Shown piece by piece: positions 26,313 to 46,995 of a DNA stretch of 64,000 nucleotides. Numbering within the stretch: position 1 is the stretch's first letter; each line of letters starts with the position of its first letter. The notes under the pieces were generated by a model, which was not told the origin of the DNA, made no database searches, and saw only the letters and a list, made by a program, of their open reading frames with translations. Source of the stretch: Chryseobacterium daecheongense. GTDB taxonomy: Bacteria; Bacteroidota; Bacteroidia; Flavobacteriales; Weeksellaceae. The stretch is taken from assembly GCA_027920525.1 (NCBI GenBank), contig CP115858.1:4154001-4218000 (forward strand), in the 5' to 3' direction. Both the position numbers and the translations under genes were made by a program.

Positions 26313-26350
26313 AAAAAAAGAGACTGTCAGATGTGATGGTCTCTTTTTTT
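26313..26350 (+). terminator. purA terminator
   Basis: AAAAAAAGAGAC, a 14-nt loop, GTCTCTTTTTTT form an intrinsic terminator 20 bases after the stop. Confidence 0.85.
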
Positions 26351-26448
26351 GATCCATAAGGTTTATTCTTCTCGCTGTGAGGATTATTTGTGGTAAAAAT
26401 AGTTAGTCAATCCATGTATTAATGTAAATTGGGCTATATATTAAAAAA

Positions 26449-26548: not shown

Positions 26549-27373
26549 CTAATTCAAATATTTTGTATAAGCCTTAGCAAGCTTTTCATCGTATTTATTT
26601 TGCTTATAACCCGTACCATTATAGCCTTTTGCAAAATTGCCCCAGTTTTTATTTCTCAAATGAACCAAAAGTCCATTCTTTTCTAAAAACTTTCCAAAAG
26701 CTTTCAGGTGTTCTCCTTCATTGATCTCCATTTTGGACACAAAATCATTAACATCGGTATAACCTAAATTTTTAGCATGGAATCCCATGATCTGAAAGCT
26801 TCCCCAGGATGCTGAAGATAATGCGGCGTCTTTAAATTTAACATCAGTCCCTAAACTTATAGCCTCATTTAATCGGTCATATTCTCTCACCCCACCCAGG
26901 TAATAGGTTCTGGTCCATTTAGGATAAAGAATGTCTTTACTTGAGTCGTTGTAATAAGAGTTTGGATTAATTCCTCGCTTTTCGAGTTCATTCCAGAAAA
27001 TATGCCCTTCAAAAAGAATTTTAGGTTTATTGTTGATTAAAAAACCTTTTCCACTGCTTTCAATTTCATTAACGGCTTTTACAGCTGCTAATTCAAGATC
27101 GTACTGGTCAGCAAACGAGATAAGGTCACTTTCTTTAAGGAATTTATCCGTTGAGATAATCGGATTAGAATTTTTCTGCAGTAATACTGCCCATGTTTTT
27201 ATTCCGACAATTCCGTCTATTACTAAAGCATTTTTGCTTTGGAAATCTTTAACTGCCGCATCTACTTCCAGGCTGAAAGAATCTGAAATTTTAATTGGAT
27301 ATCCCAGCTTATAAAGAAGTTCACATAATGTGAGAACTTCAGGCGCTTTCGTATTGTATTTTAAGAGTTTCAT
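26549..27373 (-). CDS. Endolysin-like N-acetylmuramidase with N-terminal peptidoglycan-binding domain
   Basis: Residues 1-65 form a PG_binding_1 repeat (LLYKLGYPIKISDSFSLE, DGIVGIKTWAVLL). Residues ~85-274 match the N-acetylmuramidase family (DUF3380, PF11860): AVNEIESSGKGFL holds the acidic residues expected at the active site, then KPKILFEGHIFWNEL, SSASWGSFQIMGFH, and KGYNGTGY. It would cut MurNAc-GlcNAc bonds. No signal peptide or membrane helix is visible, as in phage endolysins, so it needs lysis, a holin or another export route to reach its substrate. It is last in a three-gene minus-strand unit, 66 bases after the 609-residue protein gene. No phage structural genes surround it. Confidence 0.88.
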   Translation of the reverse strand: MKLLKYNTKAPEVLTLCELLYKLGYPIKISDSFSLEVDAAVKDFQSKNALVIDGIVGIKTWAVLLQKNSNPIISTDKFLKESDLISFADQYDLELAAVKAVNEIESSGKGFLINNKPKILFEGHIFWNELEKRGINPNSYYNDSSKDILYPKWTRTYYLGGVREYDRLNEAISLGTDVKFKDAALSSASWGSFQIMGFHAKNLGYTDVNDFVSKMEINEGEHLKAFGKFLEKNGLLVHLRNKNWGNFAKGYNGTGYKQNKYDEKLAKAYTKYLN

Positions 27374-27439
27374 GGTGCTTTTTGTTTATTAAAAGATTAA
27401 ACTATTTTTGAGTAGGGTTCGTCCATATATTCACGAAAG

Positions 27440-29269
27440 TTAGCTAACGGGAATCTTTGGCATCTTCTCACAAATCATTCCGATAAGAAAAAATGACTTG
27501 AATTTAACTTCCTCTCTCTGAAGTTTGTATTGTAAATTAATAGGAGTTGTACTTGTTACACTGAAGTTTTGGTTCAAAACTGAGTAATCATCTATTCTCA
27601 GCTCAATACTGTATTCGCCTAATGCGATAACCTGATTGACAATTCCTGCTTCGTTTGTTTCTATTTCATAAATCCTGCTGTTGTTGGTTCCTTTAATGGA
27701 GATTGAACATTTATAAACAGGATCGTTATTGATTTTATCCAGGACCCTGAATTGTATATTTGCTCCTGATGATGGAACCTGAATAGGGTATTTTATGGGG
27801 ACAAAGATTCCTGTATTTCTAATGGGGATTACAGGTTTTACTGGTGGAGCCGGAGTTACGGGTTGTGGTGTTGAAACGGGAGTAACCGATCTTACATTCC
27901 TTACACTATTGAGAACATTCATATTAATCCTGTTGAATGCAGGGATCGGATGTACTTTGGCTGTTTCCGCAACAGGTTCAGATTCAGGTTTTGTTATGAA
28001 TTCTGTGGCAGTAATCTTTGAGTTTTCATAAAGGGCTGTTTTTCTGGTTAAGTTGCTGAGCTGGTCGGATTTAATGGTTTTTACATTTGTAATGGCCTTT
28101 AAGAACTTTTGATTATTGTTTTTATTGACAAAAAGCTGCTGCTTCATGATCAGAGGACCAAAATAAATAAGTTGATCCGGGTTGTTGATTGCATCATTTG
28201 TAATTGAAGGATCTAAAATTATTTTCAGATTCTTTATTAAAATCATGGTCTTGGGAAAAGCGGGTAGTTTAAAATCACTGGAAATTGTTTGTCCGTCCGA
28301 TATTTTTTTTGGCTCATTCCATTCAAATAGTTGCGAAAGCATAAAGTTTTTGCTGAACCAGTTTCTTTTTAAATGCACAAAAGAATAATCCAGTTCGACC
28401 GCCTGAATAACGCCCTCGTCATAGTCAATCGAAAGAATTTCTGAGGGGAGGTTTTCGTGGGAGCTTTTTGCTTCCGTATATAAGGTTTCGAGTTCCTTTT
28501 TTTCAATTCTTATATTGTTCCATCCTGATTCATTTTCCATGAAATCATACGGGATAAAATTAATATCATGAATAGAGGCATTAGTGATTACGTCGGTTTT
28601 CTCAGCAGCTTCAAAGGTGTTTTTAGCATTTTGGGCCATTGCGAGATAGACATCTGCATCAGAAGCTTTGTTGATTCTTGTCAATTCTTTATCGATGTTA
28701 TCTTTATTTCCTTTTATTTTCCAATCTGAAAAGGCGATCTCTTTTGTTCCGTTTAAATGAGTAAGCTGATCATTCCAATTGTTTCTTTCCTCATCGCTGT
28801 CCAGACCGTCAAAAAGCTCGAGATGAGCTGTGATCTTATCAATTACCTGCTCATGAGCCAGTCTGTATTTTTTGTAAGCTTTAAATTCTTTAGTGTCATT
28901 CTTTTTAGCATCGAAAAGGATGGAACTTTCAATTGCCAATGTCTTATCAAGGCTTTCTTCAAGATTTTTTAAATTGTTTTTATCTAGAATATCACGATAA
29001 ATGTCAAACAGGGAATTGTTAGGATTCAGGTCCCAGAACTGAGAAGATATAGGAACTGAATTAAGTTCGTAGGCCATATTCTGCTTTTTAATAATAGAAA
29101 GGGCTTTTTTCTGATCATCGTTGAGCTGGTTTTGTGGCTTTAAAAGCTCAAGTTCTTCATTTTCATATACCCTGAGGGAAGGACATATCATGGGAAGGTC
29201 ATTTTCCATCGAGCTTTGGGATAGATAAGTGTTTTTAAGTTTCTGGTAGACGGCAATAAAATATTTCAT
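27440..29269 (-). CDS. Uncharacterised 609-residue protein with C-terminal Ig-like domain; shares a domain with its neighbour
   Basis: No family is recognised. Residues 40-290 are mostly helical and polar. Residues ~295-375 (LKRNWFSKNF at 300-309, KKISDGQ at 321-327, LPAFPKTMILIKNLKIILD at 335-353, FGPLI at 370-374) line up with residues ~395-480 of the upstream 536-residue protein. The match seems to extend into the helical part. A Thr/Pro-rich linker at 463-485 leads to a carboxypeptidase-regulatory or Ig-like beta domain at about 500-583. There is no signal peptide. It is the middle gene of the unit, with 67- and 66-base spacers. A secreted, released or surface-binding role is only an inference. 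Confidence 0.75.
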   Translation of the reverse strand: MKYFIAVYQKLKNTYLSQSSMENDLPMICPSLRVYENEELELLKPQNQLNDDQKKALSIIKKQNMAYELNSVPISSQFWDLNPNNSLFDIYRDILDKNNLKNLEESLDKTLAIESSILFDAKKNDTKEFKAYKKYRLAHEQVIDKITAHLELFDGLDSDEERNNWNDQLTHLNGTKEIAFSDWKIKGNKDNIDKELTRINKASDADVYLAMAQNAKNTFEAAEKTDVITNASIHDINFIPYDFMENESGWNNIRIEKKELETLYTEAKSSHENLPSEILSIDYDEGVIQAVELDYSFVHLKRNWFSKNFMLSQLFEWNEPKKISDGQTISSDFKLPAFPKTMILIKNLKIILDPSITNDAINNPDQLIYFGPLIMKQQLFVNKNNNQKFLKAITNVKTIKSDQLSNLTRKTALYENSKITATEFITKPESEPVAETAKVHPIPAFNRINMNVLNSVRNVRSVTPVSTPQPVTPAPPVKPVIPIRNTGIFVPIKYPIQVPSSGANIQFRVLDKINNDPVYKCSISIKGTNNSRIYEIETNEAGIVNQVIALGEYSIELRIDDYSVLNQNFSVTSTTPINLQYKLQREEVKFKSFFLIGMICEKMPKIPVS

Positions 29270-29336
29270 GGCATTAGTTTTTGTTTTTTAAATAACCGAC
29301 AGAAAAAATCTGCCGGCTATTCTTGATGAGAAGATA

Positions 29337-30947
29337 TTATGATTTTCCGTCAGTCCATTTTTTGATCTCCGGATTTGGATCCGGTGATTTCGGAATCACA
29401 TGGCATTTATAACCGATAATGTAGATTCCGTCAGAATTCAGTTTCTTTCCATTCCATTTGGCATTGGATTGTACATCCTGGTTATCGTAACTATAGCTTC
29501 CGCCGAAAACGAACGGTCCTATTCCAACTGCAGCCCCCGCACTGACAGAGTTTTTAACATCTGTAAAAGCAGTACTGTTGTTTGTAAAATCAAGGCAAAC
29601 GTCTTTAGCAATGATAAGCTCGGTAATGATAGAAGGCATTAATCCTTTTCCTTTTCCGTCGCTGATGACATCGCCACTTAAAGTTTGAGGAGATTGCTCA
29701 TGTAATTTCCAGTATTTGGATTCAATAAAGTTCTGATTAAGCCATCCTCTTTCCACTCTTACTTTTCCAAGCTTGAAAGAGACCTTCATATTCGTATAAT
29801 CTGTATTGATCTTTGTTTTTTCGTGCTTTCCGCCACCTTTTGCACCGATAGAGAAAATGCCCATGCTAAATCCTGCGGCTGCACCCCAGTTGTGAACTGA
29901 TTTTGAATAATCATAATTAGATTCACCTTCTACGATGGTAACTGTGGGCCATCCTTTAGACTCTTTTAATGCATTAGCGGCAACCGGAACGGATGGTGAA
30001 TAATTTGTATAGTCCAGAACCCTTGTTCTCTGACTGTTTCTGAACTCAGATTCCATCCTTTTTTTGATGACGAGCATGTTTTTCTGCTCTACTTCACTTA
30101 AATAATTTTGTATTTTCTCGACGGCTTCTTTGTATCCAAGAGATTGCCACGCTTTAAGGGATGCATCTTCTCTTTTTTTCATGTTCTTGCCATCGATCGA
30201 TAATTTGGCCATTGCTTCCGCATCTCCGTTATCGGCAGCAGTTCTGATTTCATTATTGGCGTCTACGATATCGTAATATTTCATCTGATATTCTACATAT
30301 TTAGAATACATCGGAGAAACGAAAGTGTGGAAGATCTCAGGTTTGTTTGTGTCGTCTATAGGTGAATTAGGATCAAAGTCTGTGTTTTTTACCTTCTTAA
30401 TTTTGAAAAGCTTATCCCTTAACGTATTCAGCTTTTTTTCAACTTTTTCATCGAATTGAGTATCAACGACTACGGACCATTGTAAAAGATCTTCATATAC
30501 TTTAGATACTCTTTTCTGGGAATCGTTCATAATGCTCATGATCGACATTACCCTTCCGTTGCCTGAACTGGTAAGTGGAGGAAGCTGAGAAGGAATGACA
30601 TCCACCATTGCAGCAAATTGCTCCATTTGAAGATATTTTCTGAATTTACTGTTTGACAGGGCGTTCTGGTAAGCCTCCATGTCAATTTTCGGATTTCCGT
30701 TAGCATCCAGGATAGGTTCTCCTTTAGCGTCCAGCATTGGTTTTGGTGACGGGGCGTCCCCAAATAGTCCGTTGAGTGCGTAATCAAAGGTGTCTTCCGA
30801 TAGAGTAATCCCTACCGGGTCAAATGAAATGAAATCATTAGGTCCCAGAGAGTCGGGGTCTCCACCATTGGTTACGGTGTCATACACTTGTTTTAAAAGC
30901 ATGCTCATTAATGAGTTTGATTTTGCTTCTTGAGTTAAAGTTGGCAT
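29337..30947 (-). CDS. Uncharacterised 536-residue protein with Gly-rich beta C-terminal region
   Basis: No family is recognised. Residues 1-330 are largely helical, with long polar helices (KVYEDLLQWSVVVDTQFDEK near 149-168, DASLKAWQSLGYKEAVEKI near 261-279). Residues 340-520 are beta-rich with glycine runs (AAAGFSMGIFSIGAKGGGK, VSAGAAVGIGPFVFGGSYS). Motifs VRVERGWLNQNF, ISDGKGKG and LMPSIITELIIAKDVCLDF recur in altered form in the next gene product. There is no signal peptide. A longer TTG start was rejected because it falls inside a TACATTTG promoter box. The architecture recalls membrane-inserting toxins, but I have no motif that proves it. Confidence 0.75.
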   Translation of the reverse strand: MPTLTQEAKSNSLMSMLLKQVYDTVTNGGDPDSLGPNDFISFDPVGITLSEDTFDYALNGLFGDAPSPKPMLDAKGEPILDANGNPKIDMEAYQNALSNSKFRKYLQMEQFAAMVDVIPSQLPPLTSSGNGRVMSIMSIMNDSQKRVSKVYEDLLQWSVVVDTQFDEKVEKKLNTLRDKLFKIKKVKNTDFDPNSPIDDTNKPEIFHTFVSPMYSKYVEYQMKYYDIVDANNEIRTAADNGDAEAMAKLSIDGKNMKKREDASLKAWQSLGYKEAVEKIQNYLSEVEQKNMLVIKKRMESEFRNSQRTRVLDYTNYSPSVPVAANALKESKGWPTVTIVEGESNYDYSKSVHNWGAAAGFSMGIFSIGAKGGGKHEKTKINTDYTNMKVSFKLGKVRVERGWLNQNFIESKYWKLHEQSPQTLSGDVISDGKGKGLMPSIITELIIAKDVCLDFTNNSTAFTDVKNSVSAGAAVGIGPFVFGGSYSYDNQDVQSNAKWNGKKLNSDGIYIIGYKCHVIPKSPDPNPEIKKWTDGKS

Positions 30948-31013
30948 AATTATTAAGTTTTTGTTTTTTTGCTTACTCTTTTCGGTTTTCAGCATCCCCG
31001 GTTTGGTATGGTA

Positions 31014-31021
31014 CAAATGTA
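31014..31021 (-). promoter_or_regulatory. -7 box (TACATTTG) of the three-gene module
   Basis: Minus-strand TACATTTG matches TAnnTTTG. A TTG lies 15-16 nt upstream as a weak -33 element. The predicted leader to the ATG at 30947 is about 60 nt. The box supports the shorter start of the 536-residue protein. Confidence 0.55.
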
Positions 31022-46707: not shown

Positions 46708-46781
46708 GATCCGGTAGTTCAGTTGGTTAGAATGCCGCCCTGTCACGGCGGAGGTCGCGGGTTCGAGTCCCGTCCGGATCG
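46708..46781 (+). tRNA. tRNA-Asp (anticodon GTC), copy 1
   Basis: 74 nt with acceptor GATCCGG/CCGGATC and discriminator G, D arm, anticodon loop CTGTCAC with GTC, and T arm GCGGGTTCGAGTCCCGT. It differs from copies 2 and 3 by T for C in the D loop region (CAGTTGG versus CAGCTGG). CCA is not encoded. Confidence 0.96.
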
Positions 46782-46813
46782 CAATCAAATTTATTTGAAA
46801 TTATAGAACTACT

Positions 46814-46887
46814 GATCCGGTAGTTCAGCTGGTTAGAATGCCGCCCTGTCACGGCGGAGGTCGCGGGTTCGAGTCCCGTCCGGATCG
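46814..46887 (+). tRNA. tRNA-Asp (anticodon GTC), copy 2
   Basis: Identical to copy 3 and one base different from copy 1. The spacer to copy 1 is 32 nt and contains AGAACTACT, which recurs before copy 3. Confidence 0.96.
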
Positions 46888-46921
46888 CATATCAAATTTG
46901 ATTAAAAAACTCAGAACTACT

Positions 46922-46995
46922 GATCCGGTAGTTCAGCTGGTTAGAATGCCGCCCTGTCACGGCGGAGGTCGCGGGTTCGAGTCCCGTCCGGATCG
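46922..46995 (+). tRNA. tRNA-Asp (anticodon GTC), copy 3
   Basis: Same 74-nt cloverleaf as copy 2. The preceding spacer repeats AGAACTACT, so a whole tRNA-plus-spacer unit was probably duplicated. A terminator follows. Confidence 0.96.

Follow-up and report, generated by a model that had tools for sequence, protein, structure and literature searches.

Known pore and lysis systems and the A-B-M locus

Bacterial gasdermins (bGSDMs) consist of about the gasdermin N-domain alone, with an inhibitory C-terminal peptide of some 20 amino acids (aa), and form pores with inner diameters of 130-330 angstrom. Lysozymes and amidases are encoded near canonical members, and mimicry of phage holin-endolysin pairs has been suggested (all from a review, PMC9612521). 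The cholesterol-dependent cytolysin-like proteins (CDCLs) of Elizabethkingia are antibacterial toxins; their activation has been proposed to take place at the target membrane, with C11-type proteases as activators (PMC11952106). In Caulobacter, a CARD-NLR-like system without a gasdermin controls lysis for the release of gene transfer agents, and the final lytic effectors are left open (PMC13236601, 2026), so that host-encoded lysis executors are being sought. Here we describe three adjacent genes, A, B and M, in a 64,000-nucleotide (nt) stretch of Chryseobacterium daecheongense ("the window"; contig CP115858.1, positions 4,154,001 to 4,218,000). Tentatively, and at chances slightly short of even, we read the trio as a host-encoded lysis cassette that would act like a holin-endolysin pair, with an A/B pore releasing M.

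29337..30947, minus strand: gene A, 536 aa, with a conserved ATG start at 30947
27440..29269, minus strand: gene B, 609 aa, a homologue of A without hairpin 1 (see below), with a transthyretin/CarboxypepD_reg-like domain before the last strand
26549..27373, minus strand: gene M, 274 aa, PG_binding_1 plus PF11860 N-acetylmuramidase, endolysin type

The list of open reading frames (ORFs) opens A at an upstream TTG (31016); the ATG at 30947 was taken as the start since it is conserved. An earlier note, made from the letters of the window and its ORFs, had placed the three genes on one strand at the coordinates above and described two related proteins of no nameable family and a phage-type muramidase, all lacking signal peptides; each of these points was borne out. 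M aligned with endolysins nearly end to end (PHROG 1224, E 5.2e-84; PDB 5nm7_G, E 4.3e-46) and the genome contains no other match to PF11860. No Pfam, PHROG, NCBIfam or PADLOC model matched A or B convincingly or above its cut-off, PDB sequence searches gave chance-level matches only, and a single-sequence search found no second copy of either in the genome. Signal peptides were judged absent from hydrophobicity, not by a dedicated predictor: the highest mean Kyte-Doolittle value of 12-mers starting in the first 30 residues was 0.51 for A, 0.62 for B and 1.33 for M.

The relationship between A and B was marginal by BLASTP (E 0.003) and clearer by hhalign (Prob 95, E 4e-8, 285 columns), both as single comparisons, and a profile of the A family retrieved B from its own genome at E 2.4e-10. 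Judged from these alignments, the two belong to one unnamed family of often paired genes. The N-terminal half of A is helical and includes a long coiled-coil region; a beta domain and a conserved C-terminal tail follow. When the model of A was compared with the PDB by Foldseek, two bacterial gasdermins ranked at the top (best E 0.03), suggesting, tentatively, a gasdermin-like fold. For B, the matches listed were filled by its CarboxypepD_reg-like domain, which is sub-threshold by sequence and clear by fold.

29835..29897, minus strand: A residues 351-371, candidate transmembrane hairpin 1, uncharged and beta-amphipathic (no shuffle control)
29487..29549, minus strand: A residues 467-487, candidate transmembrane hairpin 2, uncharged and beta-amphipathic (no shuffle control)
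27512..27763, minus strand: B residues 503-586, transthyretin-like (CarboxypepD_reg) domain, clear by fold

Compared with the other 21-mers in the alignment of A, the hairpin 1 segment has one of the lowest charges and the highest beta moment; B lacks this first segment. A Porin_4 match to A (residues 460-496, E 0.0018, below the cut-off) lies on candidate hairpin 2 and was set aside as reflecting barrel-like composition.

How does this locus compare with the described systems? With bGSDM operons (PMC9612521) it shares the tentative fold of A, a wall hydrolase partner, a proposed holin-endolysin logic and, in Flavobacterium, a caspase-fold or trypsin-like neighbour. Unlike bGSDMs, members of the A/B family measure about 440-760 aa, contain a coiled-coil region and mostly occur in homologous pairs; no gasdermin sequence match was found, and no protease was recognised beside the trio of the window. 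A and B, with their 536 and 609 aa, fall outside the bGSDM size, although a conserved C-terminal tail exists, and the N-terminal region of A contains no Cys, the residue palmitoylated in most bGSDMs (PMC9612521). Because size and N-terminal Cys both disagree, we do not file A and B as bacterial gasdermins, and we keep "works like" apart from membership. Pfam, NCBIfam and PADLOC gave no gasdermin model match for either protein, their recognition of known bGSDMs being unchecked.

Like the long and short CDCLs of Elizabethkingia, a giant-pore class (PMC11952106), A and B are two homologous Bacteroidota subunits of which one, B, has an extra domain, here transthyretin-like. Unlike CDCLs, A and B are accompanied by a muramidase, and no signal peptide is visible on A, B or M. 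Neither Pfam nor PDB-sequence searches gave A a CDC/MACPF signature; no MACPF, CDC or CDCL was among the best 50 fold matches listed for A, an absence that we do not take as evidence. The likeness to phage holin-endolysin cassettes and to PF11860 endolysins (5nm7, 7rum, 7q4s) lies in M, an endolysin-type hydrolase without a signal peptide by hydrophobicity. Unlike those cassettes, the trio has no recognised holin and a host chromosomal site: A and B are large, and neither contains a strongly hydrophobic 19-mer (maximum mean Kyte-Doolittle value 1.32 and 0.90). Phage records held no match for A, B or a Sinorhizobium relative, and scans of viral contigs for A, B and a Fodinibius relative confirmed none, although these scans required short conserved patterns and distant copies may escape them. 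A phage origin of A and B was rejected on these two results. The fungal proteins RCD-1-1 and RCD-1-2 differ in being allelic incompatibility proteins that are not known to form a gene cluster with an endolysin. They do resemble A and B in being paired, related gasdermin-like proteins (PMC11760362). As far as titles and the beginnings of abstracts tell, none of the open-licence PMC papers listed describes such a trio, the two-component family or the two RNA elements treated below.

Co-conservation, hydrolase partners and protease neighbours

A scan of genome contigs for A yielded 38 loci (locus numbers are given as L003 and so on), and the order A-B-M was found in all 36 with three complete genes: 29 from Chryseobacterium, three from Kaistella and four from metagenome-assembled genomes (MAGs) labelled Petrimonas, Proteiniphilum, Porphyromonadaceae and Bacteroidetes. 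One relative, Chryseobacterium sp. LAM-KRS1 (L003), is 100% identical in A and 99% in B and M. The remaining two loci, L036 and L040, are the two parts of a single C. carnipullorum copy that is split between contig ends; in L040, B and M come after the last part of A. Searches with B alone, in which the own genome counts each time, detected full-length B in 3 genomes of a phylum sample of 395, in 5 of an order sample of 296 and in 4 of a genus sample of 29. These B-only searches amounted to five distinct genomes, four besides the own, with A and M beside B in all; many further weak matches spanned essentially just the common CarboxypepD_reg-like part. The trio is patchy in distribution yet tightly linked, and the three-gene module that the earlier note had put forward as a candidate is borne out in 36 of 36 complete loci and in the four of four genomes found through full-length B; rare co-occurrence, which the note had named as a refutation, was thereby looked for and not seen. 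When 39 loci (the 38 of the A scan and L092) were clustered by neighbourhood, a TonB-like gene was present in 34 and purA in 18; in Chryseobacterium and Kaistella the trio occupies a recurring housekeeping site.

The A/B family extends beyond the trio to Flavobacterium, Balneolaceae and rhizobial plasmids. The A-family profile matched in 8 of 296 phylum genomes; further A-family searches were positive for 8 of 199 genomes of the Flavobacterium group and, around genome G171, for 3 of 92 genomes of its family and 2 of 145 of its class; the family of genome G212 had one match among 8 genomes. Outside the A scan we counted 13 loci with an A+B pair (L092, L094, L095, L112, L113, L114, L117, L137-L140, L142 and L143) and four single-gene members (L093, L115, L116 and L141), leaving out a fragmentary match (G785). 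The second gene of L117 is a weak member (E 1.8e-8 with a profile built without it). With the A3 profile, built from Bacteroidota A proteins only, rhizobial members scored E 2e-38 to 2e-7 and the first gene of L117 7.5e-5 in a test set of 11 proteins. A protein search added Fodinibius, Balneolaceae and Kangiella entries (two from Kangiella, their gene context not seen). Frequent motifs among members are an R-x-W that follows one of the strands, S-x-G at a turn, G-P-F/L within the last hairpin and a P-x-S-P-N-P tail at the C-terminus. Two rhizobial members (L095) have signal-peptide-like N-termini, and some members may therefore act outside the cell. In the same locus, on a Sinorhizobium conjugative plasmid, a run annotated as TIR-domain genes lies about 5 kb from the A/B pair (L095:10662-13565). 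The single A gene of L093 stands ahead of a gene for an OmpA-domain protein.

A wall hydrolase gene was adjacent to the pair, or one gene off, in 7 of the 13 further pair loci. Homologues of M with 59-63% identity occur in L092, L138, L139 and L140, and unrelated enzymes occupy the slot elsewhere: Amidase_2 plus SH3_3 in L137, CHAP plus PG_binding_1 in L114, and, in L143, SH3_3 with a sub-threshold GH19 match (E 7.7e-5; 23.0 bits against a cut-off of 25.5). None of these three non-muramidase enzymes has an obvious signal peptide. In L142, L112, L113, L094, L095 and L117 no adjoining wall hydrolase was recognised, and since several neighbours there match no family this absence is not firm. We infer that A/B and a wall hydrolase act together; the strongest argument is that the enzyme family swaps while the partnership is kept. 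A conserved protein of 124-148 aa is encoded after M in L138:12816-13190, L139:13328-13702, L140:5937-6311 and L092:11175-11621. Its L138 and L092 copies had no Pfam match, and it is a candidate immunity protein or regulator.

Protease genes stand ahead of A in four of the five close Flavobacterium loci, L137 having none. L092, L138 and L139 encode a caspase-fold protein (PF00656) together with a trypsin-like protein; the trypsin-like protein passes the Pfam cut-off in L138 and falls short of it in L092, and in L139 it was assigned from 89% identity to L092. The caspase-fold protein of L092 matched the PADLOC caspase model at E 3.7e-22. L140 encodes a papain-family protease and a chagasin-type inhibitor. 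A short gene before A, encoding a coiled-coil piece of A, is found at L092:5862-6215, L137:7711-8163 and L139:7925-8278; its product could possibly be a decoy or regulator of the pore.

RNA elements and surroundings of the locus

29290..29322, minus strand: hairpin with a 14-bp stem in the A-B spacer, z -5.7, proposed partial terminator or attenuator
30970..31002, minus strand: leader RNA immediately before A (Rfam RF02914, DUF805b) that may form an H-type pseudoknot
31014..31021, minus strand: TAnnTTTG promoter-like box, weak, with no exact -33 box
26313..26351, no strand assigned: terminator-like inverted repeat in the gap between purA and M, found by eye, ends approximate, no tool score

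The A-B spacer folds at -20 kcal/mol, and none of 200 shuffles folded as well. All 36 loci have a hairpin of -16.8 kcal/mol or better between A and B, and A-B hairpins also fold in L092 and L137-L140. The whole-fold z was below -2 in 26 of the 36; in the other ten the 100-nt cut missed the hairpin further down. Uninterrupted stems of at least 11 bp occurred in 30 of 36 loci against 18 of 1000 random 68-nt pieces of the window, the exceptions being L037 (10 bp) and L009 and L031-L034 (interrupted). Covariation was assessed on 32 sequences (28 distinct; L031-L034 omitted, L009 shortened in the outcome), with hairpin ends set by hand for L007, L009, L017, L024, L025, L037 and L039. Pairing was kept in 97.5% of cells against 92.4% in shuffled and 26-64% in slid alignments, the slid control being favourable to a structure derived from the same sequences, and 7 of 15 pairs had changes on both sides against 2.6 in shuffles. 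The hairpin may be an attenuator that holds B and M below A.

The leader scored 36.4 bits in the window, where the RF02914 gathering threshold is 35.6. Among eight relatives scanned, the threshold was reached before A in L138 alone; the rest were recognised by pattern. The leader ends about 20-28 nt ahead of A in 42 of 42 loci (37 of the A scan, including L036, plus L092 and L137-L140), and in Flavobacterium it sits within the cluster, directly before A. It can be read as a pair of interleaved helices. Of these, the second (GCU/AGC, GCA/UGC or UCC/GGA) shows full complementarity in 41 of 42 loci; the first, which shifts from CGG/CCG to CAG/CUG to AGGC/GCCU, has at least two pairs in all 42 and at least three in 29, counted with register and G-U pairs left free and without a chance control.

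Copies of DUF805b occur well beyond this locus. At E 0.001 or better they were found in at least 26 of 30 related genomes (at least 25 over the cut-off), with at least four in this genome, all lower bounds since the best 150 candidates per genome were scored. We inspected 17 copies, the three others of this genome and 14 from seven relatives, chosen as strong or clustered matches and not as a random sample. By reading, 15 of these 17 precede short peptides with a bacteriocin-type leader (the GG pattern alone gave 14, including a 182-aa collar-like protein that was excluded; two leader-type peptides ending in AG or GS were added), and the other two precede the collar-like protein and an 89-aa protein. 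Six of the small proteins were scanned: the NCBIfam model leader_Chryseo matched two, a class I lanthipeptide leader model matched one, and the three of this genome gave no match. A neighbouring peptide in L183 likewise matches leader_Chryseo. A grasp-with-spasm maturase (TIGR04192, above cut-off) follows one of the three small proteins of this genome. The trio probably shares its leader type with a competition-like regulon, and a regulon of secreted competition peptides may lie behind the name DUF805; a literature search for DUF805b gave no usable paper.

The earlier note had also stressed even spacers of 66-67 nt and one upstream promoter box. The spacers are indeed 67 nt (A-B) and 66 nt (B-M) in the window; across the 36 loci they range over 59-403 and 7-283 nt, B-M being just 7-21 nt in Kaistella and the four MAGs, and evenness is not general. 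The TAnnTTTG box is present at 31021, but it lacks an exact -33 box and is one of 32 such boxes on the same strand of the 64 kb. Within about 350 nt upstream of A the box was found in 28 of 36 loci, and a loose -33 box in 7 of 36. Among the ORFs at 21.4-37.2 kb, named by eye (purA, TonB-like, parA/parB, dapB, lepB and others), no phage, type VI secretion or extracellular contractile injection genes were recognised, as the note had said. A Flavo-1 small RNA (RF01705) lies near the locus in two relatives (L007:16962-17031 and L037:1733-1810), and a tandem of three near-identical tRNA genes (Rfam tRNA) is at 46708-46995 of the window, plus strand.

Proposed mechanism and rival explanations

In the lysis cassette that we propose, A would be the main pore subunit, the two amphipathic segments of its gasdermin-like beta domain unfolding into membrane hairpins. 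B, its rarer homologous partner, would start, gate or target the pore. M would wait as a cytoplasmic endolysin, reach the wall once A/B pores open the inner membrane, and cut glycan strands so that the cell lyses. Pores as wide as those of gasdermins would be ample for a 30-kDa enzyme. Expression may be set by the RNA leader before A and by the A-B hairpin, which would hold expression of B and M under that of A. In Flavobacterium, the caspase, trypsin-like or papain-type proteases next door could switch the pore on by cutting it; in Chryseobacterium the activator may be encoded elsewhere or be non-proteolytic. The purpose could be abortive infection or the release of bacteriocins or other cytoplasmic goods.

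For this mechanism the structural evidence is weak and the comparative evidence good. The model of A is poor (predicted local distance difference test score 58), which keeps its fold tentative. The earlier note had suggested a self-lysing system, for example a toxin or matrix protein set freed by the muramidase. The self-lysis idea gains from the unrelated hydrolases without visible signal peptides that fill the slot of M in some relatives and from A as a possible pore former, which would supply the exit route the muramidase had lacked; a matrix protein or a toxin freed by M is not favoured. A and B are more likely a pore that lets M out than a cargo that M sets free.

The main rival turns the pore outward. 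A and B would be a two-component pore-forming toxin against other cells, like the Elizabethkingia CDCLs, with M entering the prey periplasm through the pore and a few producers lysing for release. The pairing of A and B, one with an extra domain, recalls the long and short CDCLs (PMC11952106), the rhizobial members with signal-peptide-like N-termini point the same way, and the leader type of A, mostly found before bacteriocin-like peptides in the inspected copies, suggests a competition regulon. However, A, B and M have no apparent signal peptide and no sorting domain among their NCBIfam matches, inspection by eye of the part of the loci that is conserved showed no recognisable immunity or export gene, and the caspase and trypsin-like neighbours better fit activation inside the cell. 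We consider such a toxin unlikely.

Strict anti-phage abortive infection, in which infection would trigger the protease and the pore and M would hasten lysis before phage maturation, is an improbable account. The gasdermin-defence-type neighbours in Flavobacterium, with the PADLOC caspase match of L092, and the patchy distribution of full-length B in the genus and phylum samples speak for it, but PADLOC has no model matching A, B or M, no sensor gene was identified, and in Chryseobacterium and Kaistella the trio keeps to its housekeeping site beside the TonB-like gene and purA. That the genes are a conserved accessory cassette merely travelling together, A and B being structural or adhesive and M serving wall remodelling, is more improbable still: the functions of A and B are unproven and the transthyretin-like fold of B is common in surface proteins, but there is no apparent export signal, unrelated hydrolases take the same place in three loci, and protease neighbours and amphipathic segments also speak against it.

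The lysis cassette reading can be taken further, to a claim that we regard as doubtful: that A and B represent a second, two-component class of bacterial gasdermin-like pores in Bacteroidota, Balneolaceae and Proteobacteria, which would form a host-encoded holin-endolysin machine with interchangeable endolysins, a subunit ratio set by the attenuator and timing set by the leader, self-lysis freeing cytoplasmic weapons. The odds of this claim were lowered slightly because no bacteriocin model matches the three small proteins that follow the other DUF805b copies of this genome. If the lysis cassette reading is true, a large unnamed family of two-subunit pores would join the gasdermin-type death machinery, and an Rfam cis-regulatory element would be tied both to a lysis cassette and, in the inspected copies, mostly to bacteriocin-like peptides. 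Co-conservation of a pore pair with an endolysin across families would provide a natural test of the published idea of holin-endolysin mimicry, and signal-less cytoplasmic hydrolases and toxins of Bacteroidota would have a candidate exit route.

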